Source: Cornus controversa (taxonomy: Eukaryota; Streptophyta; Magnoliopsida; Cornales; Cornaceae). Taken from it: 64,000 bases of DNA. A program made the position numbers and the translations under genes. Position 1 is the stretch's first letter, and the number at the start of each line of letters is the position of its first letter. Below the pieces are notes generated by a model that did no database searches, was not told the origin of the DNA, and was given only the letters and a program-made list of their open reading frames with translations. The stretch lies in assembly GCA_026545225.1 (NCBI GenBank), contig CM048845.1:57326033-57390032 (forward strand), given 5' to 3'. Of the stretch, positions 7,411-63,655 are shown piece by piece.

Positions 7411-7421
7411 GCATCGCGTGC

Positions 7422-7803: not shown

Positions 7804-7974
7804 GCTCAAAAACAGTCAGCTTGAGTTATGCTTCAGGGACTTGGATTTTTTGGGAATTAGATACTACATTGCTTAGATACCAACTTTAACTTGGATTAAA
7901 GGGACATCATGGAAGCATGATAGCTACCATGGCTATGCCACCTTACACGTCTATGGCATGACGTTCGGATCGGC

Positions 7975-11021: not shown

Positions 11022-11786
11022 TTACTCAACGTCAAAATCATCATAGTTGAAGTGATTTAGGCATGCCTCTAGAGGATCCTTGGAAAGAATAGAAGGAAGT
11101 GCTTCTTGAACAAGGTCGTCCACAACATCGACACAAAAGCACTCACTTTCGTCTTCGGATGGGTGGTGGGAAGCATTGAAGATGTTCAAGCGGACTTTCA
11201 TATTCTCGAAAGAGATGTCCATCACTCCGGTACGGCAATTAACGCAAGCGTTTGCCGTGGCCAAGAATGGACGACCTAGAATGATAGGAATATGTCGATT
11301 TGGATTTTGGACCGGTTCTGTGTCAAGGACTATGAAGTCCACCGGAAAATAGAATTTGTCCACTTGAATGATTACATCCTCAATTATGCCACGTGGTTGC
11401 TTCACCGAGCGGTCGGCGAGTTACAACACAACCGTGGTATGCTTGAGTTCCCCCAAATCTAGTTGTTGGTAAATAGAGAATGGAAGCAAATTGACACTAG
11501 CCCCTAAATCAAGAAGTGCCCTTTCAAAAGATTGATTTCCGATGGTGCACGAAATGGTCGGAGCACCCGGATCTTTGAATTTAGGAGGGGCTTGGTGTTG
11601 GAAAATGGAGCTTATCTGCTCAGTTAAGAGGACTTTCTTAGGAACATTATTCCTGGATTTGTGCTTTTGCGTGCACAAGTCCTTCAAGAATTTAGCATAG
11701 GAGGAAATTTGTCGAATAGCATCAAGGAGAGGGAGATTGATCTTTACTTGTTTGAAGATCTCCATCATGTCTTGGATTTTCTCTCC
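11022..11786 (-). pseudogene. Retropepsin-like protease region of element Y
   Basis: This is in the same frame as gag and pol, interrupted by TAA at 11421-11423 and ending at TAA 11022-11024. The active-site motif is LLDLGASVNLLP, with DLGA in place of the more usual DSGA or DTGA, a form common in plant gypsy elements. A second conserved block, IILGRPFLATA, lies downstream. The protease would cleave the Gag-Pol polyprotein in the virus-like particle. At both stops the corresponding codon in element Z is CAA (Gln). Confidence 0.85.
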
Positions 11787-13613
11787 TTACTTCCCAAAAT
11801 GAGAAGGTTCCTTCAATCTTTGAGGAAAAGGAATCGGAGATTCAAAAGAAGTGTCAAGATTTGTATTTGATGATGACACAACTTCACTTGCCTTTCCTTT
11901 TGGATTTAATGGGATGTTATTCAAATTTGGATTCAACGGAAATAATTTTGGATTTAATTGGGATTCTTTTGGATTTGCGGATTGCTCATTGAATTCCTTC
12001 TTCTCTTCCTCCCCTACCTTGGAATTGATGATTTTACCACTCCTTAAGGTGGTGATTGATTGAACTTGCTCCGGAGGAGCATTGCAAGTTGAAGATGATG
12101 GATCCTCAATCATATGAACACCCTTAGGATTTGCCACCGGTTGACTCGGCAACTTACCTTCCTCCCTTCTATTTGAGGCATTAGCTAGTTGCCCGATTTG
12201 AGCTTCTAACCTAGCCATAGATTGAGCATTAGCTTCAAGCTTAGCGATTGATTGAGAATGAGTTTGCAATAATCGGGTATTAGCCTCAAGATTTCTTATC
12301 ACTCTTTCTTCAAAGCCTTGGCTTCTCGGAGGAGGTGGTGGTTGTTGGTAATTGGATCTTTGATGGTAGGGTTGAGGATTCGGCCTATAATGAGGCTGTT
12401 GAGATTGGGAATTAAAAGAATTTTGCCCTTAAAAAGAGGGACTTGATTCTTGAGGTTTCCATGAAAAAGCCGGATGGTTCTTGTAACCAGGATTGTACGT
12501 GTTTGAATATGGATCATTCATTTGTTTGGAGTACAAGGCATTCGCTTGCTCTTGAGCATAATCGGGAGATTGCCCGGCAATAGGACAATCTCGTACAAAA
12601 TGTGAAGTACTATAACAAAACGAACAACCTTCCTGATTTTGAACAGGTTGGCTTGGAGTAGGTAGCCCATTTTTCATGATTAAATCCATTTTTCGGGATA
12701 GAGGTTCTACTTGCATGGCAACCTCATCTACCCGTGAAATTTCATGCACTCCTCTACAAGGTTGGGTGGCCTTCCCTTTCATAGTGGAAGAGCGTTGAGC
12801 TGAATTGTTGCTTAGGGTTTGAAAAAGTTTCCATGCCTCATCAGGGCTTTTCAAAAGGTATCCACCCCCACACGCGGAGTCTATCATTTGTCTATGTTGC
12901 TCACTCACCCCATCATAAAAGCTTTGCACTAGCTGCCATTTTGGGACAACATGATGCGGACAAGATTTTAAAAGATCTTTTAACCTCTCCCACGTCTCAT
13001 GGAATTGTTCTTGGTCAATTTGGGTGAATCCGGTGATTGCTCGCCGAATATCACTTGTCTTACCCATTGGGAAGTATTTTTTTAAGAACTTTATTTGCAT
13101 CTCCGCCCAAGAATGGATTGAATTAGGTTCTAAGGAATTGAACCAACTTCTAGCTTTATCTTTTAGGGAGAATGGGAACATACGCAGCTTTAGATCATCC
13201 TCCGTAAAGTGTGGTACATGAATAGTGGAACACACAGAAAGGAAGTAATCTAAGTGCCGGTATGGATCCTCATTAGGGAGACCATGAAAGCTATTAAGAA
13301 GATTGATGGTGGAGGATTTTATTTCAAATTGATTTGCTGCTACATCCAGAAATTGGATACATGAAGGTACTTCAAATGTAGTCGGAAGGTAAAAGTCCAT
13401 AAGCAACTCTCCTTGAGGAGGTGGAGGTGGAGGTGGAGGTGGTTGTTCATGATTAAAAGGAGGTAGTCCGGGAGGTTGTCTTTCATTTGGATCCATGTTT
13501 CCAGTCCTAGGCAATATAGGGTCCCTAGAGGTTCCTCTACGTTGTCTAAGTGTTCTTTCAAGTTTAATATTACAAGGAAGCAAAGGAAGTGACAAGGACC
13601 GTCTACCTAGCAT
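11787..13613 (-). pseudogene. gag: gag of element Y: capsid, zinc knuckle and linker
   Basis: Start ATG at 13613, about 300 nt after the primer site. The first open segment (13613-12429, 394 aa) contains a Pro-rich stretch (PPPPPPPPP), a retrotransposon capsid domain (around WFNSLEPNSIHSWAEM) and one zinc knuckle CX2CX4HX4C (CSFCYSTSHFVRDC). TAA stops at 12429-12431 and 11787-11789 replace Gln codons seen in element Z. The linker is rich in Asn, Pro and Gln and includes a short heptad-like segment. It would form the virus-like particle and bind genomic RNA. Confidence 0.88.
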
Positions 13614-13909
13614 ACATTAATTATAGAACAACACCTCAATACACCAAAATAAATAAATTAAACAATAATATATACAAAAAGAATAAAAGAACTCAAACCA
13701 CTAATTTTAGATTTTATACTCACAAAGGGTTCCAACTTCAATTCTTTTCGACGCCCGCTATGTGGTATACCTAAAATCAAGAAGTTTGAGCAATAAGAAC
13801 AAAATATGTACAAAAAGAATGAAAGAATTTCTAGCCTAAGAATTAAACCAGATTTAATCTTCCAATGGCGACAATTAAACCGTAGTCCCCGGCAACGGCG
13901 CCAAAATTT
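13614..13909 (-). other. 5' leader and tRNA-Asp primer binding site of element Y
   Basis: Untranslated leader on the minus strand. The primer site (13886-13903) is the complement of the 3' end of plant tRNA-Asp(GTC) over 18 nt including the CCA. It is separated from the LTR by a 6-nt spacer. The layout is identical in elements X and Z. Confidence 0.9.
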
Positions 13910-15349
13910 TGATGTGGCTAAACTCGAATTATATTGTAAGCTTAATTTTGTCCTTTTTTATCAAAATATAATTTAACCACTCGCAAGAGCACGAATCTTT
14001 GTAGATAAGGTTCTATATAGAGGGTATCGATCCCACGAGGACTAGTCGAAATTGTCTTAAAGGAAGATTAATTCTACTTTAATTCTAAAAACATATTTTT
14101 GGATTTTTGTTTATAATCTATTGCATGAATGAAATGACAATAAAATAAAGAGTTGAGTTGGGAGAGAGAGCTAGGGGTGGTTTCCACCACTAGCCATTCA
14201 CATGTTCATCAGTGTAGCAAACATGTGATTCATAAATTAAATGCCTAACAATGTCATTAGGCTTGTGACCTTAATGACATATCAAAAGATCAATGTGTGT
14301 GCTAACCTATCATAATCCATCTTCAACAAGCATAGCTCTTCAACCTAACTAACTACCTAATTACTCTACTCTCTAAGTGAACACTACATGCATCCAAACT
14401 ACCTTGTCTTGGCATGGTCTATACAAGCAAGTATCACACATTCATTTAAACACCATTATCTAGCCATCATTTGCACTTCTTGTGGAACATGCAAATGTTG
14501 TGCATTCAAGTGACAAAATCTACTCTAAGACAAGAATAAATTCCAAATCAAATGAATATATATAAGAAATGTATTTGTGTACATATTCACTAGGCTAAAT
14601 AATCAACATTTAACTACAAATCCCCAAGTGCTACAAAAATGAACAAGTTTACATGGCTAGGTGTGTCAACCACACCCTAGTGGAGGAGTTAGTTGGTCAT
14701 GGTAGCCTTGCACCCTTCCATTGATGAAGAAAGTGAAGCTTCTTGGTCTAGTTCGGCTCCTCTTCTTCCTCTCCCAAAAGTCTCTCCTTTGATGGTCTGA
14801 TGTATATTGAGAGATATGTGAGATATGAGAGATATGGCCCTTTTTGTGTGCTTTTTGGCTTCCTTTTCAACCTTGGGGCCCACCATATATATATATATAT
14901 ATATATATATATCAATATATATATCCCTTGTATCAAGAAGGTCCCCAAGGGTCTTGTTCAAGTCAGACAATCCCCTTAAGTCGTGCAAAAAGGGGGATTT
15001 TGTTGCAAGTGGGAGAGCAAGTGAGCAAGTGGCCAAGTGGGTTCTGCAGAATCTCGATTGATCGAGATTGGATCTCGATTGATCGAGATTTCGATCAATC
15101 GAAATGAGATCTCGATCAATTGAGATTTCGATTAATCGAGATCAACATCTCGATTGATCGAGATGCCTTTGGCTGCAATTCTGATTTTCCTCTTTAGCTA
15201 CAAATAGCTTCAAACTTTGCTCCATTTACTCTAATACCTGCAGTACATGAAAAACATAAAAATACCGTAAACATATCTCGATAAACGCAAAAATGAAACT
15301 AACATAAGCAATAAAGAGGGTTTAAATGCATAGAATTGAACACTTATCA
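13910..15349 (-). repeat. 5' LTR of element Y
   Basis: A 1440-bp LTR in minus orientation, bounded by TG/CA. It carries a long TA tract (14886-14925), which is the probable TATA region, and the palindromic array at 15051-15165. The outer flank is CCTGC (15350-15354), inside an older plus-strand LTR of the same family. Confidence 0.9.
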
Positions 15350-16390
15350 CCTGCTCTCCCACTTTTAACAAAATCCCCCTTTTTGCACGACTTAGAGGGA
15401 TTTTCTGACTTGAATAAGACACATGGAGATATTAGTGATATAGTTGGTATATATATTGCTATATATATATACATGGTGGGTCCCAAGGATGAAAAGGTAG
15501 CCAAAAAGCACAAAAGGAGCCATTTCTCTCATATACAAGATATACATACTTTGAGACTTTTGGGAGAGGGGAAGAGGGAGCTGAACCAGACCTTGAAGCT
15601 TTATTTTCTCCATCGATGGAAGAGTGCAAGGCTGCCATGAGCAACTAACATCTCTACTAGGGTGTGGGTGAAACCCCTAGCTATGTAAACTTGTTCATTT
15701 TTGTAGCATTATTTGGGATTTGTATTTAAATGTTGATTATTTAGTCTAGTGACAATGTACACTTATACATTTCTTATATATATTCATTTGATGTTGATTT
15801 TATTCTTGTCTTAGAGTAGAATCTTTCATGTGAATGCACAACATTTGCATCTTCCACAAGAAATGCAAATGATGGCTAATTAATGATATTTAAATTGAAT
15901 GTGTTGTTCTTGCTTGTATAAACCATGCCAAGATTAGGTAGTTTGGATGCATTTAGGTTCACTTAGAGAGTAGGGTAATTAGTTAGGTTGAAAAACTATT
16001 CTTGTTGAAGATGGATTATGATAGGTTTGCACACACATTAATCTTTTGAGATATATATGTTATTGAGGTCACAAGCCTAATGACATTGTTAGACATTTAA
16101 TTTTATAAATCCCAAGCTTGCTACATTTATGGACATGTGAATGGCTAGTGGTGAAAACCACCCCTAGTTCTCTCTCCCAACTTTTAACTCTTTAAATTTA
16201 TTGTTATTACATTCCATGCAATAGTTTTAAAACAAAATTCAAAACCTTATTTTTGGAATTAAAGTGGAATTAATCTTTTTTCAAGACAATTAACAACTAG
16301 TCCTCGTAGGATCGATACCCTCTATATAGAACCATGTCTTCAAAGATTCGAGCTCTTACGAGTGGTTAAATTATATTTTGAAAAAGGGCA
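15350..16390 (+). repeat. Old plus-strand gypsy LTR fragment
   Basis: This aligns in plus orientation with the LTR of element Z from about 53757 onward (starting at CCTGCTCTCCC) and fades out near 16390, before the LTR end. It is more diverged than the other LTRs. Its 5' part is missing at the boundary with element Y. No primer site or gag follows. Confidence 0.8.
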
Positions 16391-17559
16391 AAATTAATCA
16401 GTCTCACACCCCTCTTCATTCTGTCAAGGCTTTGATGTGGAACACCTCAGACTTATGATTGCAACAACTCGTCCAACTGCTGTAAACTTCCAGCTAACGT
16501 CACCACCCTTATAGAAAGGTTGCTGGAAGAACCAAAATACTCAGCAAGTATTTAGTTTCCTTCGTAGTGCAATCTGGTCACCTTTCTTCCTTAGCAAGCA
16601 AGGAAGCGAAGAACCTTCAGTCCAATGTTCTGATCAGCAAATCGATTTGATGCAGTCTCTGAGCAGCTAATCAGAAGTAGAACACCATCCTAAATATCAC
16701 TCGTGTAGTATGGATGTATGTTTAAAAAATAAATAGCCCTAATTATATTGTATATACTTTCTCTCTCTAAAAATTATATTCCAGGGCTTATATGTAGAGA
16801 AAATATGAATACGTATATATAGGAAAGGAAGTTCTAATTCTAATTGGAAAAGAAGTTAAATACCAAAATAGAAATTTCCTAAAAGTTTCAAACCCAATAG
16901 GAATCAGGATTTCCGTCAAAATCTATTTCCTATTTGGAACAGGCTAAGTAGGACCGGTGCCAAATAAATAGGACCGGTGGGACTTTTTTAAAAACCTGCA
17001 GAAACTAAACTGTCGAGAAAAGTTGGACCGGTCCTAAATATTGGGGACCGGTCCTATTTTGAAAAACCCTAAATTTTGCATTTAAACCCTAGTTCTTCAA
17101 AATAGGCTCGGAACTAAAAAGTGCAAAGTGTCCTCACCATACTTACCTGTACTATATGGTGTTCTAACTGATTTGTCTGTATTCATGCACTTGAATATCA
17201 GCTTGTAGTAGTCGATGATCGATACAAAGAATAAATCAAAAATTACAACTCGATCAATCAAGTTTTGATCACCGAAATATGCCAATTACAAATTTATATC
17301 TCACAAATGCAACTTAAATATCATAAGTAGCATTGGTGAATTTAAAAAATGTAAAGTTCTTCGTAGAACTGCAACCAAGTGCAAATTTAGTCTTGATTGG
17401 AAAACCCATTAATGAAATAAATCTTGGACCAGCCTCTCAACTCATTAGATCTTTGAGATTCTGAATCTTCATATTAGAATAGTCTTTAACATGAAAATAA
17501 AATTGTTTAAATACAATACATAAAATGCGAAACGAAAAAAATAAATTACATTGACTTCC
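16391..17559. other. Unassigned intergenic sequence
   Basis: No gene or transposon was recognised. A cluster of GGACCGGT motifs, two of them full GGACCGGTCC palindromes, lies at about 16950-17055. Only short, non-conserved reading frames are present. Confidence 0.4.
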
Positions 17560-20255: not shown

Positions 20256-20940
20256 TTAAGTAGGTAAAGAAGAAAACAACTTAAGTTTGGAAACCAAATC
20301 ATAAAAACATCCTGGCGGATGAGCTTTGGTGAAAATGTCGGCCGTCTGATCAGCAGAACTGACTGAAAATAGACGAATTGTGCCTTGAAGTACATGTTGA
20401 CGGACAAAATGACAATCAATTTTAATATGTTTGGTACGTTCATGGAAGACGTCATTATGAGCAATCTGGATGGCACTTTGATTATCACAACAAAGTGTTG
20501 TAGCAGTAGAATGTGAAATACCCATGTCCTCAAGTAACCATCGAAGCCAAAGAAGTTCTTGAGTGGTATCAGCAAGAGCACGATATTCAGCCTCTGTACT
20601 GGAGCGTGAAGTGATAGATTGTTTCTTGCTGCGCCAAGAAATAAGAGAATCACCCAAGAAGAAGCAATAGCGGTAGTAGAGCGACGATCAGTGGGATCTC
20701 CAGCCCAGTCAGCATCAGAGTAGGCACGAAGAACAAGAGAAGAATGAGCGGAAAAGTGAAGCCCTTGAAACATAGTACCTTTGATGTATCGAAGAATGCG
20801 AAGAACAACATCATAATGGGTAGATCTTGGAGCTGATAGGAATTGACTGACAATGTGAACTGCATAAGCAATGTCAGGGCGAGTAACTGTAAGATGGACA
20901 AGGCTGCCAACCAATTGTCGATACAATGTTGCATCACTAA
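20256..20940 (-). pseudogene. Copia RNase H domain and end of pol
   Basis: The C-terminal part runs in one frame to the stop at 20256 (segment 20657-20256) and contains SSTEAEYRAL, LLWLRWLL and DNQSAIQIA, typical copia RNase H blocks. The preceding block (LYRQLVGSLVHLTVTRPDIA) is in another frame. A 4-bp duplication near 20952 shifts out of the RT frame and a 1-bp loss near 20672 shifts back. It degrades the RNA strand during cDNA synthesis. Confidence 0.85.
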
Positions 20941-22022
20941 GCAGGGTACCATGCATCCAGAGGAGTGAGACGCATGTTAGTTTCCAGAGGAGTAGAAGAT
21001 GTTTTACAATCAGTGAGAACAGCTTTAGCAAGAATATCGGAGGCATACTTGGCTTGTGAGATATAATAACCACTAGAATCAAAATGAATCTCAAGACCCA
21101 AGAAATAGCTCAGGTGACCAAGATCCTTCGTCTCAAAATGATGACTAAGAGATTGTTTGAGAGTAGAAATGCCGTCAAGATCATCTCCAGTAATTATCAT
21201 ATCATCAACATAGAGAAGTAGAAGAGTAATGCCAGATGCAGCCTTGCGAATGAAGAGGCCATAATCATAAGAGCTAGGTGTAAATTCAAAATTGCCAATA
21301 ACAGAGCTAAATTTTGCAAACCAAGCTCGAGGAGCTTGTTTAAGACCATATAGAGCACGACGAAGTTTGCAAACTTGATGAGGAGAGTGATTATATCCAG
21401 GAGGAGGTTTCATATAAACTTCTTCTGCAAGATCCCCATTGAGAAATGCATTTTTGACATCCATTTGGAAAAGAATCCACTTACGAACAGCAGCAACTGC
21501 AAGTAAACTGCGAACAGAAGTCAATCGGGCGACAGGAGCAAAAGTCTCCTCATAATCAATACCATATTCTTGTGTATAACCTTTAGCAACCAGACGAGCT
21601 TTGTATCTTTCCACAGAGCCATCAGAATGAGTCTTAATTTTGTAAACCCATTTACAACCAACAACAGTTTTTCCAGAAGGTAGATCAACCATGTCCCATG
21701 TATGAGATTGGTCGAGAGCATGTAATTCATCTGTCATAGCTTGTTGCCAATGAGGATTAGAACTAGCCTCTTGATAAGATTGAGGTTCATGATGAGATAA
21801 AATAGTGGAGAAACAATGATAGTCACAAAGGTAACCTGGTGTGGATCTTACTCGATCTGAATGACGAGTACCATCAGATGGCTCAATGGGAAGGATATCA
21901 GATGTAGAGGATTCAGCAACAGAATCATCAGTAGGAGCAGACCCATCAGGAGAGATCGTATGTTGGAGCTCAGAGGGAAGTGGAAGATCTGGGGAGATAG
22001 GAAGAGTATTTGGTGAAGCTGA
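20941..22022 (-). pseudogene. Copia reverse transcriptase
   Basis: The open segment 21737-20937 (266 aa) carries the copia-type RT: VGCKWVYKIK, RYKARLVAKGY, QMDVKNAFLNGDL, ALYGLKQAPRAW and the catalytic LYVDD. A short variable linker joins it to integrase, with an in-frame TGA or TAA-type stop near 22023-22025. The active-site residues look intact. The frame is lost at about 20952 through a short duplication. Confidence 0.88.
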
Positions 22023-22860
22023 TTATTGATCGGCGGTCGGTGGGTGGGTGGTGTCTATGTCAGAAGGAAAGAGATCAACAGTGGGATCACTAAAGAAGAA
22101 CGATGTAGATGGAGAAGATATATAAAACTTAGAGAGAGATGAGAACATCTTATGTTCCCAAAAGATGACATGACGAGAGATACGTAATCGTTTAGAGATA
22201 GGATCCCAACAACGATAACCCTTGTGTTCAATCCCATAGCCTAAGAAACAGCAAAGACGAGCACGAGGTTCTAACTTGGTGTGTTCATGTGGTTGAAGGA
22301 GGACAAAACAAGCACAACCAAAAACCTTGAGAAGATTGTAGGAAGGGGTAACACCATATAGACACTCATAAGGAGATTGATTTTGGAGGATAGGCATGGG
22401 AACACGATTGATGGTATAAATAGCAGTAAGAGCTGCTTCCCCCCAGAACTTTTCAGGACATGAACTGGAAATAAGAAGAGTGCGAACAGTATCCAAGATA
22501 TGTCTGTGTTTACGTTCAGCTCTCCCATTTTGTTGAGAAGTGCCAGGACAAGAATAATGAGAGACGGTACCATGTTGACGAAGAAACTTGAGAAAATTAG
22601 TTTCCTTGTATTCCATGGCATTATCGGCACGAAAAATTTTGATAGATCTTAAAAATTGGGTTTTGACCATATTGACAAAATCATAGTAAAGTTGAGGTAA
22701 CTCAGAGCGATTATTCATTAGGTAGAGCTAGGTAAACCGAGAATAATCATCTATGAAGATAACAAAATATTTTGACCCCCCCCCCCCCATTGTGGAATGA
22801 GGAGAAGGTCCCCAAACATCAGAATGGACTAAATCGAAAGGAGCAGTTGAAACAGAGTCA
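22023..22860 (-). pseudogene. Copia integrase core
   Basis: The core acidic residues are visible: the first Asp in HSDVWGP (just upstream, near 22815), the second in FRADNAMEY and the Glu in QQNGRAERKHRHI. A TAG at about 22725-22727 interrupts it after DDYSRFT, where related elements have Trp. A run of 13 C (22777-22789) encodes a Gly run and may be a slippage site. The preceding zinc-type block (WHSRLGH ... CLHC) lies at about 22890-23000. Confidence 0.85.
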
Positions 22861-23930
22861 CTTTTATTAAAAGATAAAGCTGGTTGTTTTCCAAGTTGAC
22901 AATGTAAACAAGTGACATCATCATTTTTGACAGACCCTAATAGACCAGTGGTCACTAAAGAGCGAAGGCGCCCAACAGAAACATGCCCTAGTCTGGAATG
23001 CCAGAGGTTGAAAGAAGGAGTTGTAGAGGTGGATGTAGCAATAGAAGAATGATGAGAAGGAAGATGAAGATTGACGAGCTCAAATAGTCTTCCAACTTTA
23101 CGGCCTATCCCAAGGATCTGTCCTGTTTGAGGATCCTGTACAGAACAACCAGAAGAAGAAAAAAGAACATTAAGTCCAAGTTCACATATTTGACCAACTG
23201 AGATAAGATTAAGAGTAAGTTCAGGTATGTGAAAGGTCTCAGAGAGTGTAACATTGGGGGTGGATACTTTTCCTGTATGATTTACTTTCATATAAGATCC
23301 ATCAGCAGTGGTAATAAGAGGAGTGCGAGTAGTAAAATTTTGGGAGATGAAGATGGTGGAATCAGAAGTCATGTGATTACAACAGGCAGAATCAAAAAAC
23401 CAAGAAGAGTTACCAGAAGTAACAGACATAGCAGTAGAGTGAGTACCAGAAGTAGAGAGGAGTTGTTGGAGCAGATCCCTTAGATCATTGGTAGAGACAG
23501 ATGATGTGGAGTCTAGCAAAGAAGATCCTTCAGCTGTAACAGCCGTGACAGATGAGGGACTAGACTTAGGTTTAGCATTGCGAGATGTGGTTTTGTAAGG
23601 ATGCTTAAAACAATCTCTCTGATAATAACCAGGGCCTTTCTTGTGACAAAATTTGCAGACCCTGATGGGGCAGTTCAGAAGGGCATGATGAAGATCATGA
23701 CAGTAAGTACAACCTGGTTGAGAAGAAGATTTAGATGAGGATTGACTGACCTTGTGGTAGGGTGTAGCAAGAACTGTATCGGTGGTCTGTGATGGGAGAT
23801 TCTGAGATGGAAGAGTTCCAAGATGAGTTTCCTCTGATAGAAGCTCAGAGACAGCACTTTCTATAGTGGGAAGTGGATGCCTGTGTAGAAGAGAGGCTCG
23901 AACGGATTCAAATTTATCAGTGAGAGCCAT
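22861..23930 (-). pseudogene. Copia nucleocapsid knuckles, protease and pre-integrase region
   Basis: In frame with the segment above. A zinc knuckle-like motif is CTYCHDLHHALLNC, and a second is degenerate (CKFCHKKGPGYYQRDC, with the usual His position disturbed). The protease motif reads WFFDSACCNHMT, with Ala where the catalytic DSG/DTG normally has Gly. The GAG-pre-integrase segment WHSRLGH...CLHCQLGK follows. An in-frame TAA at 23949-23951 separates it from gag. Confidence 0.82.
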
Positions 23931-23948
23931 GAGAAATGTTATTAAGTG

Positions 23949-24430
23949 TTACTGATCTCTGTAAGTAGTGAACTTCTGGGTATCCGTAGAACAATCCCAT
24001 GTAGGTTCTGAAAGTGTTAACTGATCCCAAATAGCATACATTTCAGAAAGAAAGTTATGGATAGATTGACCAGGCTTCTGAATAGTACAATGAAGAGTCC
24101 TCTGGAGTTGAAATTGATGAGCTAGATCAGTAGTGGTGTACCTATTCTGAAGAAAGTCCCAGACTGCTTTGGCGGTATCGAAACGACCAAATTGAAGGCC
24201 AATAGAGGAAATGGAGGTATTACAGAACCATGTGATAACTTGATAATTTTTTCTATCCCAATCATCAAATCGTTCTGCATATTTGTCGTTGGCTTCAAAT
24301 TGTTCTTGCTTAGGTTCAGTAATAGTACCAATGATAAGACGCCAAAGCTTACGGCCCTTCAAGAAGCTTGTCATTGCCGAAGCCCAGGAGGAATAATTGG
24401 GGCCATCAAGAATAATATTAATAGGTTACG
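23949..24430 (-). pseudogene. gag: Copia gag (UBN2-type capsid)
   Basis: The region 24374-23949 encodes a UBN2-like capsid segment: LKGRKLWRLI, AVWDFLQNRY and LQRTLHC, the usual plant copia gag blocks. Homology begins upstream of the first Met, at about 24410 (GPNYSSWASAM), with a stop in the preceding N-terminus near 24425. It ends at TAA 23949-23951, in the same frame as the following segment. Confidence 0.82.
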
Positions 24431-52758: not shown

Positions 52759-53426
52759 TCAATATACTACTACTGCCAAACTTCCAATGGAGTCTCCTGG
52801 TCAAGCCCAAAGCAAGATGATGGTGATGATGATAATAGAGAGATACAACGAAAAGTGGGCCTTCTTGGGCGAAGCTCCTACAGAAAATGGGGTGGTGATG
52901 GTGAGGTCGACTGGTATATGCAAGATATGAAAAAAAATAAATAAATCAACTAACAGAGAGAGAGAGAGAGTTATATAGGATCCGCAATATATGAAGCAAT
53001 ATATAAAAAAGAAAAAAAAATAATGAACTAACACAGAGAGAGAGAGAGTGTGTGTGAGATACAGGATCTACAATATATATAAAAAAAATAAAAATAACAC
53101 AAAGAGATAGAATAAATTTCCTTTGTATTTCAATAAAAAAAAAATTTCCCAGGGAATATCCAACAAAGTCTTTTGGGTTCTAGTCTCTACTGAATATGAA
53201 ATTATGAACTATCCAGTAGCAATGTACCATTTTAAAATTTTAATACAAAGCAAGGAATTTTGCATCCTTCCAGTGGAGACCAAAATATGGAGCAGAAGAA
53301 TTTTCAAATTTTCATGTGAAAACAAAGAGAAAGTTAAGATGTAAAGTGAGACTGAATTATAATATAAACAAATTTGTGGACCCACATCAAATCTGAACCC
53401 AAATTACTTTCACTTCTAAAGATACA
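52759..53426. other. Unassigned flank left of element Z
   Basis: AT- and GA-rich sequence with GAGA runs at 52953-52972 and 53034-53050. No gene was recognised. The last five bases, ATACA (53422-53426), are the target duplication of element Z. Confidence 0.5.
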
Positions 53427-54847
53427 TGATAAGTGTTCAATTCTATGCATTTGAACCCTCTTTCTTACATACGTTAGTTCCGTTTTCGCGTTTACCGAGA
53501 TATATTTACGGTATTTTTTGTGTTTTTGATGTTTTGCAGGTATTGGAGCAAATGGAGCAAAGTTGGAAGCTTTCTGCAGTTAAGAGAAGAAATCAGAAAA
53601 TACAACCCAAGGCATCTCGATCAATCGAGATGTTGATCTCGATTAATCGAAATCTCGATTGATCGAGATCTCATTTCGATTGATCGAAATCTCGATCAAT
53701 CGAGATTCAATCTCGATCAATCGAGATGCTGCAGAGCCCACTTGGCCACTTGCTCACCTGCTCTCCCACTTGTAACAAAATTTCCCTTTTTGCACGACTT
53801 AGGGGGATTGTCTGACTTGAACAAGACTTTTGGGGGCCTTCTTGATACAAGAGATATATATAATGATATATATATATATATGGTGGGCCCCAAAGGAGAA
53901 AAAGGAGCCAAAAAGCACCAAAAAGCCACACATATCAGATATATCTCTCAACACACAACAAGGGAGGGAGAGACCTTCGGGAGAGGAAGAGGAAAAGCTG
54001 AACCAGACCAAGAAGCTTCATTCTCTTCATCAATGGAAGGGTTCAAGGCAACCATGAGCAACTAACTCTTCTACTAGGGTGTTGGTTTCAACCCCTAGCC
54101 ATGTACACTTGTTCATCTTTGTAGCTCTTGGGATTTGTAATTAAATGTTAATTATTTAGCCTAGTGATTATGTACACAAATACATCTCTTATATATATTC
54201 ATTTGATTTGGAATTTATTCTTGTCTTAGAGTAGATTTTGTCACTTGAATGCACAACATTTGCATATTCCACAAGAAGTGCAAATGATGGCTAGATAATG
54301 GTGTTTAAATGAATGTGTGATGTTAGTTTGTATAGACCATGCCAAGACAAGGTAGTTTGGATGCATGTAGTGTTCATTTAGAGAGTAGAGTAATTAGGTA
54401 GTTAGTTAGGTTGAAGAGCTATGCTTGTTGAAGATGGATTATGATAGGTTAGCACACACATTGATCTTTTGATATGTCATTGAGGTCACAAGCCTAATGA
54501 CATTGTTAGGCATTTAATTAATGAATCCCATGCTTGCTACACTTATGAACATGTGAATGGCTAGTGGTGGAAACCAACCCTAGTTCTCTCTCCCAACTTT
54601 AAACTCTTTACTTTTCTTGTCATTTCATTCATGTAATAGTTTCTAAACATAAATTCAAAAATCTGTTTTTTTGAATTAAAGTAGAATTAATCTTCCTTTA
54701 AGACAATTGCGACTAGTCCTCGTGGGATCGATACCCTCTATATAGAACCTTATCTACAAAGATTCGTGCTCTTGCGAGTGGTTAAATTATATTTTGATAA
54801 AAAGGGAAAAATTAAGCTTACAATATAATTTAGTTCCGACCACATCA
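53427..54847 (+). repeat. 5' LTR of element Z
   Basis: 1421 bp, TGATAAGTG...CCACATCA. The palindromic array is at 53616-53727. The TA-rich TATA region is at about 53853-53881, so the array lies in U3 about 130-250 bp upstream of the likely promoter. Confidence 0.96.
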
Positions 54848-55132
54848 AAATTTTGGCGCCGTTGCCGGGGACTACGGTTTTATTGTCACCATTGGAAGAT
54901 TAAATCTGGTTTAATTCTTAGGCTAGAAATTCTTTCATTCTTTTTGTATATATTTTGTTCTTATTTCTCAAACTTCTTGATTTTAGGTATACCACATAGC
55001 GGGCATCAAAGAGAAGTAAACTTGGAACCCTTTGTGAGTATAACGCCTAAAATTAGTGGTTTGAATTCATTCATTCTTTTTGTAAAGATTATTGTTACTT
55101 TGTGTATTGAGGTGTTGTTCAATTGTTAATGC
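54848..55132 (+). other. Leader and tRNA-Asp primer site of element Z
   Basis: The primer site TGGCGCCGTTGCCGGGGA (54854-54871) is complementary to the 3' end of plant tRNA-Asp(GTC) and lies 6 nt from the LTR. The rest is untranslated leader up to the gag start. Confidence 0.93.
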
Positions 55133-57973
55133 ATGCTAGGTAGACGGTCCTTGTCACTTCCTTTGCTTCCGTGTAACATTGAACTTGAACGAACACTTAG
55201 ACAACGTAGAGGAACCTCTAGGGACCCTATATTGCCTAGGACTGAAAACATGGATCCAAATGAGAGACAACCTCCCGGACTACCTCCTTTTAATCATGAA
55301 CAACCACCTCCACCACCACCACCTCAAGGAGAGTTGCTTATGGACTTTTACCTTCCAACTACATTTGAAGTACCTTCATGTATCCAATTTCTGGATGTAG
55401 CGGCAACTCAATTCGAAATAAAGTCCTCCACCATCAATCTTCTTAATAGCTTCCACGGTCTCCCTAATGAGGATCCGTACCGGCACTTAGATTACTTCCT
55501 TTCCGTGTGTTCCACTATTCGTGTACCACACTTTACGGAGGATGATCTAAAGCTGCGTATGTTCCCCTTCTCCCTAAAAGATAAAGCTAGAAGTTGGTTC
55601 AACTCCTTAGAACCTAACTCAATCCATTCTTGGGCGGAGATGCAAATAGAGTTCTTGAAAAAATACTTCCCAATGGGTAAGACAAGTGATATTCGGCGAG
55701 CAATCACCGGATTCACCCAAATTGACCAAGAACAATTCCATGAGATGTGGGAGAGGTTAAAGGATCTTTTAAAATCTTGTCCGCATCATGCTGTCCCAAA
55801 ATGGCAGCTAGTGCAAAGTTTTTATGATGGGGTGAGTGAGCAACATAGACAAATGATAGACTCTGTGTGTGGGGGTGGATATCTTTCGAAAAGCCCCGAT
55901 GAGGCATGAAAACTTTTTCAAACCCTAAGCAATAATTCAGCTCAACGCTCCTCCACTAGGAAAGGGAAGGCCACCCAACCTTGTAGAGGAGTGCATGAGA
56001 TTTCACGGGTAGATGAGGTTGCCATGCAAGTAGAAGCCCTATCCCGAAAAATGGATTTAATCATGAAAAATGGGATGCCTACTCCAAACCAATCTGTCCA
56101 AAATTAGGAAGGTTGTTCGTTTTGCTATAGTACTTCACATTTCGTGCGAGATTGTCCTATTGCAGGGCAATCGCCCGATTATGCTCAAGAGCAAGCGAAT
56201 GCCCTGTACTCTAAACAAATGAATGATCCATATTCAAACACGTACAATCCTGGTTACAAGAACCATCCGGCTTTCTCATGGAAACCTCAAGAATCAAGTC
56301 CCTCTTTCCAAGGGCAAAACTCTTTCAATTCCCACTCTCAGCAGCCTCATTATAGGCCAAATCCTCAACCTTACAATCAAAGATCTAATTACCAACAACC
56401 ACCACCTCCTCCGAGAAGCCAAAGCTTTGAAGAAAGAGTGATAAGCAATCTTGAGGCCAACACCCGCTTATTGCAAACTCACTCTCAATCAATCTCTAAG
56501 CTTGAAGCCAATGCTCAATCTATGGCTAGGTTAGAAGCTCAAATCGGGCAACTAGCTAATGCCTTAAATAGAAAGGAGGAAGGTAAGTTGCTGAGTCAAC
56601 CGGTGGCGAACCCCAAAGGTGTCCATATGATTGAAGATCCATCATCTTCAACTTGTAAAGCTCCTCCGGAGCAAGTTCAATCAATCATAACCTTAAGGAG
56701 TGGTAAAATCATTAATACCAAGGTAGGGGAGGAAGAGAGAAAGGAATTCCAAGAGCAACCTAAAAATCCAAAAGAATCCCAATTAAATCCAAAATTGTTT
56801 CCACTAAATCCAAATTTGCAAAATACCCCTTCAAATCCAAAAGGAAAGGCAGGTGAAGTTGGGTCGTCATCGATTCCAAATCTTGACACCTCTTATGAAC
56901 CTCTGGTTCCTTTTCCTCAAAGATTGAAGGAACCTTCTCATTTCGGGAAGCAAGGAGAGAAAATCCAGGACATGATGGAGATCTTCAAACAAGTAAAGAT
57001 CAATCTCCCTCTCCTTGATGCTATTCGACAAATTCCCTCCTATGCGAAATTCTTGAAAGACTTGTGCACTCAAAAGCGCAAATCTAGGAATAATGTTCCT
57101 AAGAAAGTCCTCTTAACTGAGCACATAAGCTCCATTTTCCAACACCAAGCCCCTCCTAAATTCAAAGATCCGGGTGCTCCGACCATTTCGTGCACCATCG
57201 GAAATCAATCTTTTGAAAAAACACTTCTTGATCTAGGGGCTAGTGTCAATGTGCTTCCATTCTCAGTTTACCAACAACTAGGTTTGGGGGAACTCAAGCA
57301 TACCACGGTTGTGTTGCAACTTGCCGACCGTTCGGTGAAGCAACCACGTGGCATCATTGAGGATGTCATCATTCAAGTGGACAAATTCTATTTTCTGGTG
57401 GACTTCATAGTCCTTGACACGGAATCGGTCCAAAATCCAAAGCGTCATATTCCTATCATTCTAGGTCGTCCATTCTTGGCCACGGCAAACGCTTGCGTTA
57501 ATTGCCGCACCGGAGTGATAGACATCTCTTTTGGGAATATGAAAGTCCGCTTGAACATCTTCAATGCTTCCCACCACACATCCGACGATGAAAGTGAGTG
57601 CTTTGGTGTCGATGTTGTGGAAGACCTTGTTCAAGAAGCACTTCCTTCTATTCTTTCCAAGGATCCTTTAGAGGCATGCCTAAATCACTTCAACTATGAT
57701 GACTTTGACATTGAGCAATCCATATGTGAAGTCAATTCCATGCTCGATGTTAATACTGTCATGGATTTACCTAAATGGAGATTTCTGAGAGACCCCTTTC
57801 CTCCGTTGATTAATTCTGTCGCTCCCCACGGAGCGGTGGAATTGAAGGACTTGAAAGACGGCTCGTTGTTCAAAGTGAACGGGCAGCGCTTAAAAGTGTG
57901 CGTGGATGACCAAGTCACCACCGAATACGTGGATGTCGTCACTTTGACGGATCCCGTGTATTTTGACTCGTGA
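55133..57973 (+). pseudogene. gag: gag-protease fused in frame to the integrase tail (element Z)
   Basis: A single frame from ATG 55133 to TGA 57971-57973, interrupted only by TGA at 55907-55909 (Trp in Y) and TAG at 56105-56107 (Gln in Y). It carries a Pro-rich N-terminus (PPPPPP), a capsid domain, a zinc knuckle CSFCYSTSHFVRDC (56117-56158), an Asn/Pro linker, the protease motif LLDLGASVNVLP and IILGRPFLATA. At about 57808 it passes directly from the post-protease segment (PKWRF...PP) into the last part of integrase ([15 protein letters not shown]). RT, RNase H and the integrase core are absent, but the reading frame is preserved. It could encode particle and protease only. Confidence 0.9.
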
Positions 57974-58140
57974 GCCGATCCGGACGTCGTGCCATAGACG
58001 TATAAGGTGGCGAAGCCATGGTAGCTATCATGCTTCCATGATGTCCCTTTAATCCAAAGTTGGTTTGTATCTAAGCAATGTAGTATCTAATTCCCAAATA
58101 TCCAAGTCCCTGAAGCATAACTCAAGCTGACTGTTTCTGA

Positions 58141-58523
58141 GCATCTCGATTGATCGAAACCAGGATCTCGATCAATCGAGATTTCGATTGATCGAGATCT
58201 CAATCTCGATTGATCGAAAAATTGCAGAGATTTGCCAAGTCCAAAGTCCCGAGAGGTAGTATTCTTCGATTGCACTTCGATAGATCTTCGATCGATCAAA
58301 AATTTCGATTGATCGAAAGAAAATTTCGATTGATCGAAATAAAATTTCGATTGAATGAATTAAATGTTCGATTGATCGAAGTAAAAGTGTGATTCAGTGA
58401 AGGAATTTTTGATTGATCGATGAGACAATCTCGATCGATCGAAGTTGATTTCGATTGATCGAAGTGAAATCTCGATCAATCGAAATCTTGATTGATCGAA
58501 ATGCACATCTCGATCAATCGAGA
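58141..58523 (+). repeat. Palindromic TCGATYRATCGA array upstream of ORF2 (element Z)
   Basis: About 20 imperfect copies of TCGATYRATCGA and of the longer ATCTCGATTGATCGAGAT, with irregular spacers. It is the counterpart of 7422-7803 in element Y. It ends 15 bp before the conserved CACGTG. Confidence 0.88.
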
Positions 58524-58538
58524 TGCACGCGGGGCCTG

Positions 58539-58784
58539 CACGTGAGCCGAAAGTCTATTTAAACCGTTGGGCTTCCCTCCCATTTTGAAAGACCATCCGA
58601 ATTCTTCTCTCCCTCTGTGCGATCCAAGCCTTCTCCAAGCACTCCCGAGCACTCGATCTACCATTCCCGATCATCCACCGCCATCCGACGCAGTACGAAG
58701 CCGCCGCTAGCACTTGCGCGATCTCCTCTTCGCGGCTGCGAGTGGATCTTCTTCGGTTGAGCCGTTCATCTTCTTCCTCTCGAG
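58539..58784 (+). promoter_or_regulatory. Putative internal promoter and leader exon for ORF2 (element Z)
   Basis: CACGTG (58539-58544), then TATTTAAA (58556-58563), then a GC-rich, C/T-biased leader up to the splice donor at 58785. The arrangement is the same as in element Y. The GC content rises sharply here compared with the AT-rich LTRs. The probable start would be 25-35 nt after the TATA box, near 58590. Confidence 0.55.
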
Positions 58785-59191
58785 GTAAGTAATGCATGGC
58801 TATATTTTGCATACTCTCTCACCATTTCTGATAGTTTTATGGCGTAATAAACATAGTTAGGTGATGTTGGGGTGGATGGATGTGATTAAAATATCTGTAA
58901 TGAGATTTTGTGGATTTCGGGGGGTAGGAAGTCATGTAGGAGTGAGATTTGGCATTCTTTTTGTTTAAAATGCTTAGTGTATGGTGTGCAACCGCGACAC
59001 CTTCGTTTCGGTTGCATCTATTCACATTGCCTCTTTGAGAGCGTTTTTTTTTTTTTTGCATTCTTGTCAGTACCATAGACTAGGACTTCATTTTTATTTC
59101 TATTCTTTTAGTTTAATCGTAGTTTAGCTTTCTTCTTATTTATCTTTTATTTACGTAATTTTTGGAATCAAGTGCAAACTGTTCCGAGGCT
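58785..59191 (+). other. Putative ORF2 intron (element Z)
   Basis: Donor GTAAGTAATG at 58785. The T-rich tract (59041-59060 and 59105-59165) is followed by TGCAAAC at 59173-59179, where element Y has TGCAGAC, so the best acceptor appears lost by G-to-A. An alternative AG lies at 59187-59188, just before ATG 59192. The presence of the intron in the DNA copies means the packaged genomic RNA was unspliced here. Confidence 0.5.
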
Positions 59192-60415
59192 ATGGCGAGG
59201 GTGAAGAACGCCGCCGATTCTGTTCGCGACGTGCCCGGGCGAGCCTTCCGGTCTCGAAGGTTCCACCCGGAGCAGATTTTTGACTTAGCCGAGTTCGACA
59301 GGCGTCCAGACACCGCGTGGACGGTTGCCGAGCTCAGGAGGCGTCGCCTCGACCGGCTATGTGTGCCTCCCACCGACGTGGCACACGAGCGCCTCGTGCA
59401 GGTCTTTTACGATCACATGACCTACTCCTGCACCGCGCCAGATACACTACAGACGGTGGTGGGCACCGTCACGATTACGATTACACCGAGCCGAATTGCG
59501 CATATGCTCGGCATCCCTCACCAGCAACCACCGGACATGGTTGGCCCGGACGGTCAGCCACTTTACAGTGCCGCACTCCCAGCAGACACGACGCTGTTCT
59601 CGATCGTGATGGACATGTGTGGCGGGGCGTTTACCACGCCCAGTCACAACTGCACGTCCAAATCGTTGTGCCCGAGCTGATTCTGGTTCCTAGACACCGT
59701 TCTCATCAAGAACGCGTGTCCGCTGCAGCACGTGGCAGAGCGCAGGGGCGACCTTCTCCGTTGCCTCTATGCTTTCCACACGGGCACTTGGTTTTCTGTC
59801 CCGTCGCTGATCTGGGGGCAGATGTTCAAGTTCTGGGACGGCCTCGTGAACAAGAGGATGAGGCGAGCAGCTAGTTGGCGGCTTCCCTTCCCTTTCCTGA
59901 TCGCCGCTTTTCTCAGCAGTGCCAGTATACCGGTCAGTCAGACTGACGTCCAGTTGGCACCGCCCACCCACTTCACATCTACTCAGTGGGAGCGGGTGAG
60001 GCGACACTTAGAGCGACAGGACCACCAAGGTGATCCACCAGACGATGTAGATATGGATGCCCCGGTGGAGGCGGATGAAGGCGAGCCAGCAAAGGGTGAG
60101 TCCGATGACGAGGAGATGGAGGAGGAGGAGATGGATGTCGCTGTAGAGCGGCATGATATCTTAGTGACGGGCTATTCCTGCCTGGCGGCTGACATAGAGC
60201 GGCTCCAGCAGGGTTTTGATGAGCACGTCTAGGTGACGCAGAGTTAGCTGGCAGGCATTCGGGCGGACATTTCTTCTCTGGCACAGGGTCAGAGAGCGAT
60301 CTTAGACGAGTTCCGAGCCTTCCGGTAGGACCTGCAGTTCCTGTTCGCAGGTCGAGCCTCCACCTCCACTTCTACTCTCACCGAGCCTCCACCACCACCA
60401 CCCGCCCTCGAGTAG
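59192..60415 (+). pseudogene. ORF2, post-integrase protein of element Z (four in-frame stops)
   Basis: Start ATG 59192 (MARVKN), end TAG 60413-60415; 407 codons in a single frame. Stops: TGA 59678-59680, TAG 60230-60232, TAG 60245-60247 and TAG 60326-60328. The three TAGs match CAG (Gln) in element Y. The domains are as in Y: basic N-terminus, globular domain with VPPTDVAHERLVQVFYDHMT and MLGIPHQQPPDM, acidic DDEEMEEEEMD, coiled coil, and a Pro tail. It is markedly GC-rich compared with gag. No membrane segment is visible. The function is unknown. Confidence 0.8.
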
Positions 60416-62229
60416 CTGCATTTTATTCATCTTTTATGCTTTACTTTCTGTATTTTTCTTTCTTTATTTTTGATAGGCCATGTTGGCCATGTTTAGTCTC
60501 TTTCTGAGTATTCCACCTACATGTACACTTTGTACTCAAACTCATTTTCATCTATATGGAATACATTTATATTTTCTTTTATACCATGTGTTATCTTTAC
60601 TGTCTTTATTTTTGCTTTCTGTCAATATATCTGTTCTCTATACTTTGACTATGTATGTAGTACCACTTGTCTAATTGTTATATGCGATTCAGTTGATGAT
60701 TTCCGTTTATTACCGCCTGGTTTCAATTCCCAATACTGTTGAGATTGCTTCAACACAGTATGGCGGTAATAAAGAAAGGCAGCCCCTTTGCATGCTATAC
60801 GTTAGCATGCCTGGATAGTCAATATCTTGTCGCATAGACCTCTTAGCCAATTGGGAAACACCAGTTCAGACCCTTAGATATACAGTGATATTGGCATTAT
60901 CTGTTTGTGCATAATTATTTCATTATGTTCTCGTTATCTATTTTTTGTTCCTTTTAATGCTCGTGGTATCCAGTTGGTGTTCTGTGCAGGTTTTCCTTAT
61001 TTACAAGATGACCGCTGCTGTGGAATACCATTTTTCTCGCATTCTGCCATCCCGGTAACTTCTTTCCTTGTTCTTCTTGTCCAAACATTGAGGACAATGT
61101 TGCATATAAGTTTGGGGGTGCGGTATGCTATACCACCTGCATATGCATGCAATGTTCGGTCATTATATTGAGTGTCATTGTAGAGCAGTTTTTTTCTTTT
61201 TGATATTTTTGCATGCTTGCCATGATGTCTTGCTTTTTAAAGGAAGTCATTTGAATAAATGTCCGAGGTAAATGCAGCAGGTAGTTAAGAACTTTAACAT
61301 TGTAAATACCCGCACTTTTGCAAGCTTTATAGTAGGCTAGAACGGTCTACATTTTTGTCCAAATTCGAGCACGTACAGTTCTTGCCCTAAATTTGTCCTT
61401 AACCGCACAAATTCGCACACATGCATTTTAATTTGTGGGGTATAAGTCTGAGGGAGAATTTTTGAAAATTTCTGTTTTTATCTGAATAACTTAAAGAATA
61501 AGTTCTTCCAGTTGTTGTAAAAAAAAAAAAAAAAAAAAAGAAATAAAAAGAGAAAAATATGCAATAAGCCTTCTCACTCAATAAACCGGATTTCTATGCC
61601 GCAAAGCAGGGAATATTCGCGTAAAATTGTGTAAGGTTGAGCAATAATAAGCGGGTGGCTTGCTTACGCTCATCGCCTTATAAGCTCGGTCATTAAGTCC
61701 GAGGGGTGCTTCTTCACCTAATGCCCTAAAATCAAGTGGTTTGGGAGTCATTTGGCCCAACGCCGCTACATGGGCTTGCAAGAAAGCAAAAAGAGCTAAG
61801 CATTGCACGGTCATCTGCACATGAGCAATCATGAATGTTTTGTGATAATGAACAGCCGTGTCGAACATTTTCAATGAGTTTTTCTCTTAAAAACAGATTT
61901 GTTCATTTTCTTCTCCAAATATGACAAAAGCCACACGTTGGAATGCATGTTCACTTTTCAAAGAGGATTTTGGGGTTGGAATTGTTATATTTGTTCGGGC
62001 TGGCCATTATGTGGGGACTGTCGTTCATTTATAGCTTGTGAAAGTCCATTTTTGCTAATGACCACATAGTTCTGTAATACTTGTTGCATTTGCCAAATGT
62101 GAAATGAACGGATGATCGCCCTTTATCTAGTTGATGACTGAGCCTGATTAAACTTTTGTATAAGATAGTTGATTTCATTTTTGTAATATTGTATTGCTAA
62201 GGGACTAGCAATATGTAAGTTTGGGGGTG
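60416..62229 (+). other. 3' untranslated region of element Z with two polypurine-like tracts
   Basis: 1.8 kb without a convincing frame, conserved with 3751-5555. The internal motif TAAGTTTGGGGGTG is at 61107-61120 and the terminal copy is at 62216-62229 beside the LTR. A poly-A-like run lies at 61519-61540. Confidence 0.8.
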
Positions 62230-63650
62230 TGATAAGTGTTCAATTCTATGCATTTGAACCCTCTTTCTTACATATGTTAGTTCCGTTTTTACGTTTACCG
62301 AGATATGTTTATGGTATTTTTTGTGTTTTTGATGTTTTGCAGGTATTGGAGCAAATGGAGCAAAGTTGGAAGCTTTCTGCAGTCAAGAGAAGAAATCAGA
62401 AAATACAGCCCAAGGCATCTCGATCAATCGAGATGTTGATCTCGATTAATCGAAATCTCGATTGATCAAGATCTCATTTCGATTGATCGAAATCTCGATC
62501 AATCGAGATTCAATCTCGATCAATCGAGATGCTGCAGAGCCCACTTGGCCACTTGCTCACCTGCTCTCCCACTTGCAACAAAATTCCCCTTTTTGCACGA
62601 CTTAGGGGGATTGTCTGACTTGAACAAGACTTTTGGGGGCCTTCTTGATATAAGAGATATATATAATGATATATATATATATATGGTGGGCACCAAAGGA
62701 GAAAAAGGAGCCAAAAAGCACCAAAAAGTCACACATATCAGATATATCTCTCAACACACAACAAGGGAGGGAGAGACCTTCGGGAGAGGAAGAGGAAAAG
62801 CTGAACCAGACCAAGAAGCTTTATTCTCTTCATCAATGGAAGGGTTCAAGGCAACCATGAGCAACTAACTCTTCTACTAGGGTGTTGGTTTCAACCCCTA
62901 GCCATGTACACTTGTTCATCTTTGTAGCTCTTGGGATTTGTAATTAAATGTTGATTATTTAGCCTAGTGATTATGTACACAAATACATCTCTTATATATA
63001 TTCATTTGATTTGGAATTTATTCTTGTCTTAGAGTAGATTTTGTCACTTGAATGCACAACATTTGCATATTCCACAAGAAGTGCAAATGATGGCTAGATA
63101 ATGGTGTTTAAATGAATGTGTGATGTTAGTTTGTATAGACCATGCCAAGACAAGGTAGTTTGGATGCATGTAGTGTTCACTTAGAGAGTAGAGTAATTAG
63201 GTAGTTAGTTAGGTTGAAGAGCTATGCTTGTTGAAGATGGATTATGATAGGTTAGCACACACATTGATCTTTTGATATGTCATTGAGGTCACAAGCCTAA
63301 TGACATTGTTAGGCATTTAATTAATGAATCCCATGCTTGCTACACTTATGAACATGTGAATGGCTAGTGGTGGAAACCAACCCTAATTCTCTCTCCCAAC
63401 TTTAAACTCTTTACTTTTCTTGTCATTTCATTCATGCAATAGTTTCTAAACATAAATTCAAAAATCTGTTTTTTCGAATTAAAGTAGAATTAATCTTCCT
63501 TTAAGACAATTGCGACTAGTCCTCGTGGGATCGATACCCTCTATATAGAACCTTATCTACAAAGATTCGTGCTCTTGCGAGTGGTTAAATTATATTTTGA
63601 TAAAAAGGGAAAAATTAAGCTTACAATATAATTTAGTTCCGACCACATCA
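62230..63650 (+). repeat. 3' LTR of element Z
   Basis: 1421 bp, collinear with 53427-54847, with about 19 differences by eye. The palindromic array is at 62419-62531. It is followed by the target duplication ATACA. Confidence 0.96.
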
Positions 63651-63655
63651 ATACA

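Follow-up and report, generated by a model that had tools for sequence, protein, structure and literature searches.

One palindromic box in the LTRs and upstream of ORF2 of an Athila-like retrotransposon in Cornus controversa: candidate sites for a shared dimeric regulator

The question raised by this locus is why one short palindrome is repeated both in the LTRs of a plant retrotransposon and between its pol and ORF2 genes. The analyzed DNA, a stretch of 64,000 nucleotides of the Cornus controversa genome (772 Mb in 61 contigs) that is called the window below, contains two Ty3/gypsy LTR retrotransposons of the Athila-like type and, at its left edge, one LTR (about 248-1667, minus strand) belonging to a third element, which runs past that edge. 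The plus-strand element (53427-63650) is flanked by the target-site duplication ATACA (53422-53426 and 63651-63655). Its LTRs (1421 bp; 53427-54847 and 62230-63650) are 98.7% identical to each other, and the element is therefore young; gag and the protease region are present, and most of pol is gone. The minus-strand element (about 2327-15349) encodes RT, RNaseH, and integrase in the gypsy order. Both elements contain a sense open reading frame, ORF2, located 3' of pol: in the plus-strand element (59192-60232) it is broken by stop codons, and in the minus-strand element (5556-6743) it has an open stretch of 394 residues with a weak match to PF20167. Thus the layout is Athila-like, with gag, a gypsy-order pol, and a sense ORF between pol and the 3' LTR. 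We take the window elements to be Athila from their primer-site and layout features; the name also draws on the PF20167 likeness described in PMC11728184. The box array, the internal promoter region, and ORF2 are kept in derivatives without most of pol, namely the plus-strand element and locus L079. A decayed copia element (20937-24425, minus strand; RVT_2, integrase SH3-like, gag_pre-integrase, and copia-type gag) also lies in the window.

The core of the palindrome, TCGATYRATCGA, occurs exactly 43 times in the window, compared to a mean of 0.02 and a maximum of 1 in 100 shuffles. As the first-pass annotation had claimed, arrays of this box are present in all five LTRs, upstream of the TATA tract (about 53853-53881, in the sense of the element), and larger arrays precede a second TATA between pol and ORF2. 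At two mismatches or fewer, each LTR array contains six boxes: 53617-53724 and 62420-62527 in the 5' and 3' LTRs of the plus-strand element (both with spacings 22-16-21-16-21), 15054-15161 and 3455-3562 in the 5' and 3' LTRs of the minus-strand element, and 1372-1479, also on the minus strand, in the LTR of the left-edge element. One of these had been placed at 3464-3566; the array is real, but its first box, at 3455, had been missed. The pre-ORF2 arrays, with 15 boxes at 58146-58521 (plus strand) and about 15 at 7425-7800 (minus strand), lie in element sense upstream of the TATA-type element TATTTAAA (58556-58563 and 7383-7390, respectively). No boxes were found in a sixth LTR fragment (about 15341-16397), whose start lies downstream of the array position. 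Between the LTR array and the TATA tract (53732-53780), there are repeated CANNTG motifs (CACTTG, CACCTG) that are largely kept across copies and are a possible counterpart of the internal G-box described below.

Genome-wide, the exact 18-mer is found at 15,665 places (7928 + 7737), and its reversed control at none. All 40 sampled box-cluster loci, built from the first 100 places listed (all on contig 1, 0.76-4.04 Mb), match the LTR or pre-ORF2 flanks of the Athila-like family. Searches with the pre-ORF2 promoter segment and with the LTR start yielded 1631 and 1365 first-look candidates, respectively; 40 were scored in each case, and all 40 of the former matched. The internal set comprised 42 rows after exclusion of L029 and L035, which have no upstream-flank match; one row, L009, is the window copy again. 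LTR loci L045, L060, and L073 were left out, the upstream match being absent. The 35 LTR rows were reduced to 33 for the analysis of constraint (L044 and L057b, in which the array is cut off, were omitted), and to 32 for the count of spacings and substitutions, where L033 was omitted as well.

The first-pass annotation had proposed a comparison of boxes with spacers, and it came out in favor of constraint on the box cores. Eleven divergent internal copies, hand-picked from one genome and of common ancestry, were compared pairwise. Their cores differ by 0.092 and their arms by 0.185, the spacers by 0.205, and the flanks by 0.125 (upstream) and 0.222 (downstream); for transversions, the values in the same order are 0.011, 0.060, 0.073, 0.067, and 0.082. 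The transversion values of the 33 LTR copies are 0.005 for cores and 0.002 for arms, as against 0.070 for spacers (only 10 columns) and 0.044-0.045 for flanks. None of 2000 random sets of 12-mers had transversions as low as the boxes, either in the internal or in the LTR copies; with non-CpG differences as the measure, none of the 2000 internal sets but 20 of the 2000 LTR sets reached values as low. The internal arms are no better kept than the spacers, in contrast to the LTR arms, which differ by 0.061.

The cores change mainly at their two CpGs, by C>T or G>A: position 1 shows C>T 79 times (66 internal and 13 LTR) and position 10 shows G>A 73 times (56 and 17), while the inner CpG bases vary less (20 and 43 changes). 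An exception is a T>A change at core position 8 shared by 18 internal boxes. Such mirrored changes fit a dyad-symmetric site in methylated DNA, as would be expected of a dimer on double-stranded DNA. Within 11 LTR pairs, among which L089/L090 and L091/L092 may duplicate each other, CpG positions differ at 9 of 225 places in boxes versus 23 of 301 in flanks (p = 0.098, not significant), and other positions at 1 of 471 versus 121 of 14333; this is a hint that the boxes may be protected from CpG methylation.

Neighboring boxes are separated by 16-17, 20-22, 41-43, or 82-84 bp in 653 of the 663 intervals in 41 internal and 32 LTR copies, that is, by about 1.5, 2, 4, and 8 turns of DNA. These intervals are only suggestive of helical phasing, since unequal exchange between repeats gives similar steps and the copies share ancestry. 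The commonest change in array length is 21 bp (16 of 53 gaps). The order of parts in the LTR array is gcatc, box, 10 nt, box, 4 nt, box, gatctca.., box, 4 nt, box, 9 nt, box, 5 nt, TGCAGAG, and block 1 of the internal array (58146-58217 in the plus-strand element) reads gcatc, box, 10 nt, box, 4 nt, box, gatctca.., box, 5 nt, TGCAGAG. The exit TGCAGA or TACAGA was seen in 34 of the 41 internal copies and in 31 of the 33 LTR copies. Sharing this order, block 1 looks like a displaced LTR array minus one box pair, though the opposite direction of transfer is possible too. Between the internal blocks, a non-box stretch at 58226-58290 (AAGTCCCGAGAGGT.., with TTCGAT half-sites spaced by about 11 bp) is kept in most of the 11 divergent copies.

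Downstream of the internal array, a TATA-type element is present in all 41 copies: a scan of the full 820-bp stretch found TATTTAAA itself in 39, and two have variants identified from the alignment. The 75 bp before it contain a G-box in 37 of the 41 sampled copies (CACGTG at 58539-58544 in the plus-strand element and 7402-7407 in the minus-strand element) and an exact 18-mer in 33 of 41. Some 200 nt of leader follow the TATA-type element, and after them comes a GGTAAGT donor (11 of 11 divergent copies); the acceptor TGCAG/AC is located 14 nt before the ORF2 ATG in seven of the eight copies that reach it, the exception being the plus-strand window copy. This count was made without rows L012, L017, L031, and L037, which are in the wrong orientation, and L043, L056, and L068, which end before the acceptor. 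The leader intron occupies 58785-59177 in the plus-strand element (GGTAAGT donor, acceptor before ORF2 with one letter altered) and 6793-7160, from GTAAGT to TGCAG, in the minus-strand element.

Leader and ORF2 start are found 30 or fewer bases apart at two places genome-wide, both being exact donor-acceptor joins, and the unspliced acceptor context occurs 368 times. Since two genomic copies lack exactly this intron, the leader intron is genuine, and spliced RNA has been reverse-copied into the genome at least twice. As read by eye, the two intron-less copies belong to different subfamilies, and both have the array and gag-pol-derived sequence upstream; therefore their RNA began upstream of the internal TATA, presumably in the LTR.

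We suggest, with a probability of about 0.72, that the boxes are sites for a dimeric DNA-binding protein that co-regulates the LTR and ORF2 promoters of one element. They would form an enhancer-like array bound by a dimeric protein that recognizes double-stranded DNA. The LTR array would serve the LTR promoter, producing genomic RNA and gag-pol, and the larger internal array would serve a second promoter, that of ORF2, to which the G-box, the TATA, a leader exon, and the spliced intron of the leader also belong; with the boxes in common, the LTR and ORF2 transcripts would rise and fall together. Binding, initiation at the internal TATA, and co-regulation are what we infer from sequence features. 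A dimeric factor driving both promoters was proposed in the first-pass annotation; core constraint, dyad symmetry, and the conserved TATA-type element, G-box, and spliced intron speak for it, whereas the intron-less copies came from a longer RNA. Co-regulation of LTR and ORF2, proposed at the same time, may soundly be inferred and is strengthened by the order of block 1, which matches that of the LTR array, and by the recurrence of the design in two other families. As for the binder, no plant factor for the box motif was found by title among the open-licence papers listed, motif and DAP-seq papers included, and the letters of the box led there to papers unrelated by title. We lean slightly towards a host factor rather than the ORF2 protein.

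The two other families were identified by a PF20167 search of the genome (4447 candidates, 150 scored, 30 loci fetched). The Athila box was missing upstream of the ORF in 29 of these 30 loci, L109 having two near-matches; at least two family palindromes were found upstream of the ORF in 28 of 30, the exceptions being L100 and L109. By their hallmarks, families B and C are copia-type. In family B (20 loci), what we take to be the copia RNaseH motif lies upstream of the ORF in 17 of 20. The ORF is preceded in this family by 4-15 AAAGTCGACTTT-like boxes, many of them paired at 22 bp; for instance, 13 boxes were found at L103, compared to 0.2 in a Markov control. No clear TATA was seen between the family B array and the ORF. 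Genome-wide, AAAGTCGACTTT is mildly enriched (172 places versus 140 for the reversed control), and it is the clustering that stands out. The family B element at L111 has purine-tract repeats and an apparent LTR start after the ORF, and the next stretch, L130, contains four boxes followed by CTATATATACAT; the same order is seen in L129, which comes from a repeat present in several copies at distances of 7.5 kb. Rows of this repeat, with three copies at C2:62200602-62216009 and two at C2:49124364-49132185, suggest tandem elements sharing LTRs.

In family C (9 loci), 2-4 GGACCGGTCC-like boxes precede the ORF in eight of nine loci, with spacings 20-44-20 in the best copies, and 3-4 boxes lie past the ORF in the 3' LTR of all nine, before CCTATATATATG in the three that were read out. 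A 30-mer containing the family C LTR box pair occurs exactly 610 times in the genome (control 0). Among 24 PF20167 matches on contig 1 below 81.8 Mb, counted by eye among the 30-mer matches listed, 13 sit between same-strand copies of this 30-mer 6.4-6.6 kb apart; of the rest, three belong to family B and eight are not so flanked. An exact family C LTR box pair of the GGACCGGTCC type is also present in the window (about 17025-17054, minus strand; contig C1:57343057-57343086), which thus contains a second palindrome-bearing family. Constraint is mixed in these two families, and the internal cores of family C are no better kept than their spacers. In 14 of the 20 family B loci, divergence is 0.098 in cores, 0.234 in spacers, and 0.140 outside; the respective values are 0.084, 0.051, and 0.190 for family C internal arrays and 0.042, 0.078, and 0.092 for family C LTRs. 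Random sets were as low on transversions in 29, 19, and 59 of 1000 cases, respectively. In one genome, the palindrome differs by element family while the layout and the ORF type stay.

ORF2 is under purifying selection and conserved as a protein, with dN/dS of 0.22-0.33 in seven of seven comparisons, which are non-independent, all being made against the same minus-strand copy. The window ORF2 matches PF20167 (Transposase_32) with 29.2 bits (E = 1.1e-6), below the curated cut-off of 45 bits. Its parts are ordered as a basic start, the PF20167 region, an acidic stretch (net charge -22 over residues 241-320), a helical C-terminal region (with a predicted helix, partly confident, at residues 306-376), and a proline tail; the structure model has a mean pLDDT of 40.6. 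In the family B ORF (432 aa, locus L111), a basic start and a PF20167 region scoring 95 bits are followed by an acidic stretch, then by a heptad-like region towards the C-terminus, and finally by a proline tail; the family C ORF has a basic start and a PF20167 region scoring 91 bits. Profile comparisons gave E = 3.8e-6 for C versus B, 0.00047 for Athila versus C, and 0.017 for Athila versus B, and common descent of the three ORFs is probable. A large protein database contained no ORF2 homologues at E <= 0.001 among 4197 candidates. The sole match of the ORF2 profile in PDB was a keratin at chance level (E = 0.57).

Several other explanations of the arrays can be weighed against these data. Neutral satellite-like repeats, homogenized by slippage and exchange, could account for the 21-bp changes of array length, but homogenization would reach the spacers as well, while only the cores are kept and the spacers differ within and between copies; moreover, the LTR and internal arrays hold one motif in different surroundings, and we consider this origin hardly credible. 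Action of the boxes as RNA, with palindromes forming transcript hairpins that work through small RNAs, was an alternative in the first-pass annotation and has been argued for maize Sirevirus palindromes (Bousios 2016, as cited in the available part of PMC10760457). The RNA of the internal array indeed folds better than its shuffles (z = -10.75, 0 of 100), although strong folding is expected of any palindrome array. The changes in the boxes disfavor pairing in the sense strand: at the outer pair of the sense RNA, pair-breaking C..A combinations outnumber wobble-keeping T..G ones by 214 to 42, a relation that antisense RNA would reverse, and at the mirrored outer CpG bases C>T is about as frequent as G>A. 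An RNA role is thus improbable. It is also unlikely, if less strikingly so, that no internal promoter is in use and that ORF2 is expressed from spliced RNA started in the LTR, the internal array having another role or being an LTR relic. In the two spliced, reverse-transcribed copies, sequence from 5' of the array is retained, so that RNA presumably begun in the LTR was spliced at this intron; splice acceptors precede the env-like genes of Athila and Bagy2 (cited in the available part of PMC2829016), and the resemblance of block 1 to the LTR array would suit a relic. However, the intron is within the ORF2 leader, and therefore its removal leaves ORF2 far from the 5' end of the genomic RNA; furthermore, a gene expressed by splicing only would not need the TATA-type element, the G-box, and the array, all of which are kept.

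A different proposal concerns the binder: the ORF2 protein could be a nuclear dimeric regulator of its own palindromes, acting in a feedback loop as a transactivator or an anti-silencer. We regard this as possible but doubtful. It would be in line with the family palindromes upstream of the ORF in 28 of 30 PF20167 loci of other families, with the change of palindrome along with the ORF2 family under a constant layout, with the conservation of ORF2 as a protein, and with the region order common to the Athila and family B proteins, the basic start and PF20167 region recurring in family C; nuclear localization signals are predicted in a sunflower Athila ORF similar to PF20167 (PMC11728184, available part). 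On the other hand, no DNA-binding fold was recognized, the structure model is poor, the Athila PF20167 match stays at 29 bits against a cut-off of 45, and L100 and L109 have no upstream boxes. LTR boxes also occur in Sireviruses that have no extra ORF, according to the available part of PMC2829016, and a single hydrophobic stretch at the usual membrane threshold (1.60) makes an envelope-like role possible. Somewhat more speculative is the generalization that PF20167-type ORFs, called env-like, are family-specific transactivators or anti-silencers that bind their own palindromes, in a module recurring, with different palindromes, across copia and gypsy elements. If true, an element would run a self-reinforcing switch through palindromes of its own family that lie both in its LTR and ahead of the ORF.

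A constrained family palindrome common to the LTR and the region upstream of the ORF makes the choice between ORF protein and host factor directly testable. What plant env-like ORFs do is a matter of controversy according to the available part of PMC7264820. As far as our searches of the open-licence literature show, four points are new: such arrays occur in a gypsy element, their constraint has been measured, the leader contains a spliced intron, and the palindrome switches by family under a constant layout and ORF type.

In foamy viruses, the transactivator Tas acts on both promoters. As in the Athila-like element, one retroelement has two promoters, an LTR and an internal one (PMC7828637, available part), and the internal promoter is for an accessory gene; the sequences are unrelated, and a transactivator of the Athila-like element is hypothetical. 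The second analogy is with the Arabidopsis VANDAL elements, whose VANC proteins act in sequence-specific anti-silencing, binding of VANC having been shown. In the portion of PMC5735166 available, the VANC motif is, like the boxes, short, element-specific, dense in non-coding parts, family-dependent, and turned over by repeat gain and loss; in contrast to the Athila-like element, VANDALs belong to the DNA transposons and have a non-palindromic motif, and VANC binding is demonstrated while the boxes are putative binding sites. Both the foamy-virus and VANC comparisons are analogies. Among plant gypsy elements, Grande expresses an extra gene from its own promoter, the accessory gene23 encoding a nuclear protein (cited in PMC7264820), but gene23 is antisense to gag-pol, and the available part of that paper describes no shared palindrome array. 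The sunflower Athila-type element also has a sense ORF with partial similarity to PF20167 and predicted nuclear localization signals, while no box array is described in the part of PMC11728184 available.

The closest precedent is the "repeated motif" of Sireviruses, as described in the available part of PMC2829016: many short palindromes in the LTR upstream of the TATA and again upstream of ENV where it is present, with a family-specific sequence and a proposed internal promoter. The Athila-like palindromes likewise are present in multiple copies before the TATA of the LTR and recur ahead of the extra gene that follows pol. Among the elements compared in that study, the repeated motif was called Sirevirus-specific; the same layout thus also occurs in a gypsy element. 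The differences are that the Athila-like element is Ty3/gypsy, with the order RT-RNaseH-integrase, and not Ty1/copia, and that its core, TCGATYRATCGA, does not have the CGG-CCG signature, which is also absent from Tnd-1 (same source); constraint, spacing, and the spliced leader intron were measured in the Athila-like element. The Athila-like array would work like the Sirevirus motif, yet it is not a member of that group, being in a gypsy element and having another core. Repeated purine tracts, seen at L111, are a Sirevirus hallmark in the same source, and the family C palindrome GGACCGGTCC fits the Sirevirus signature.
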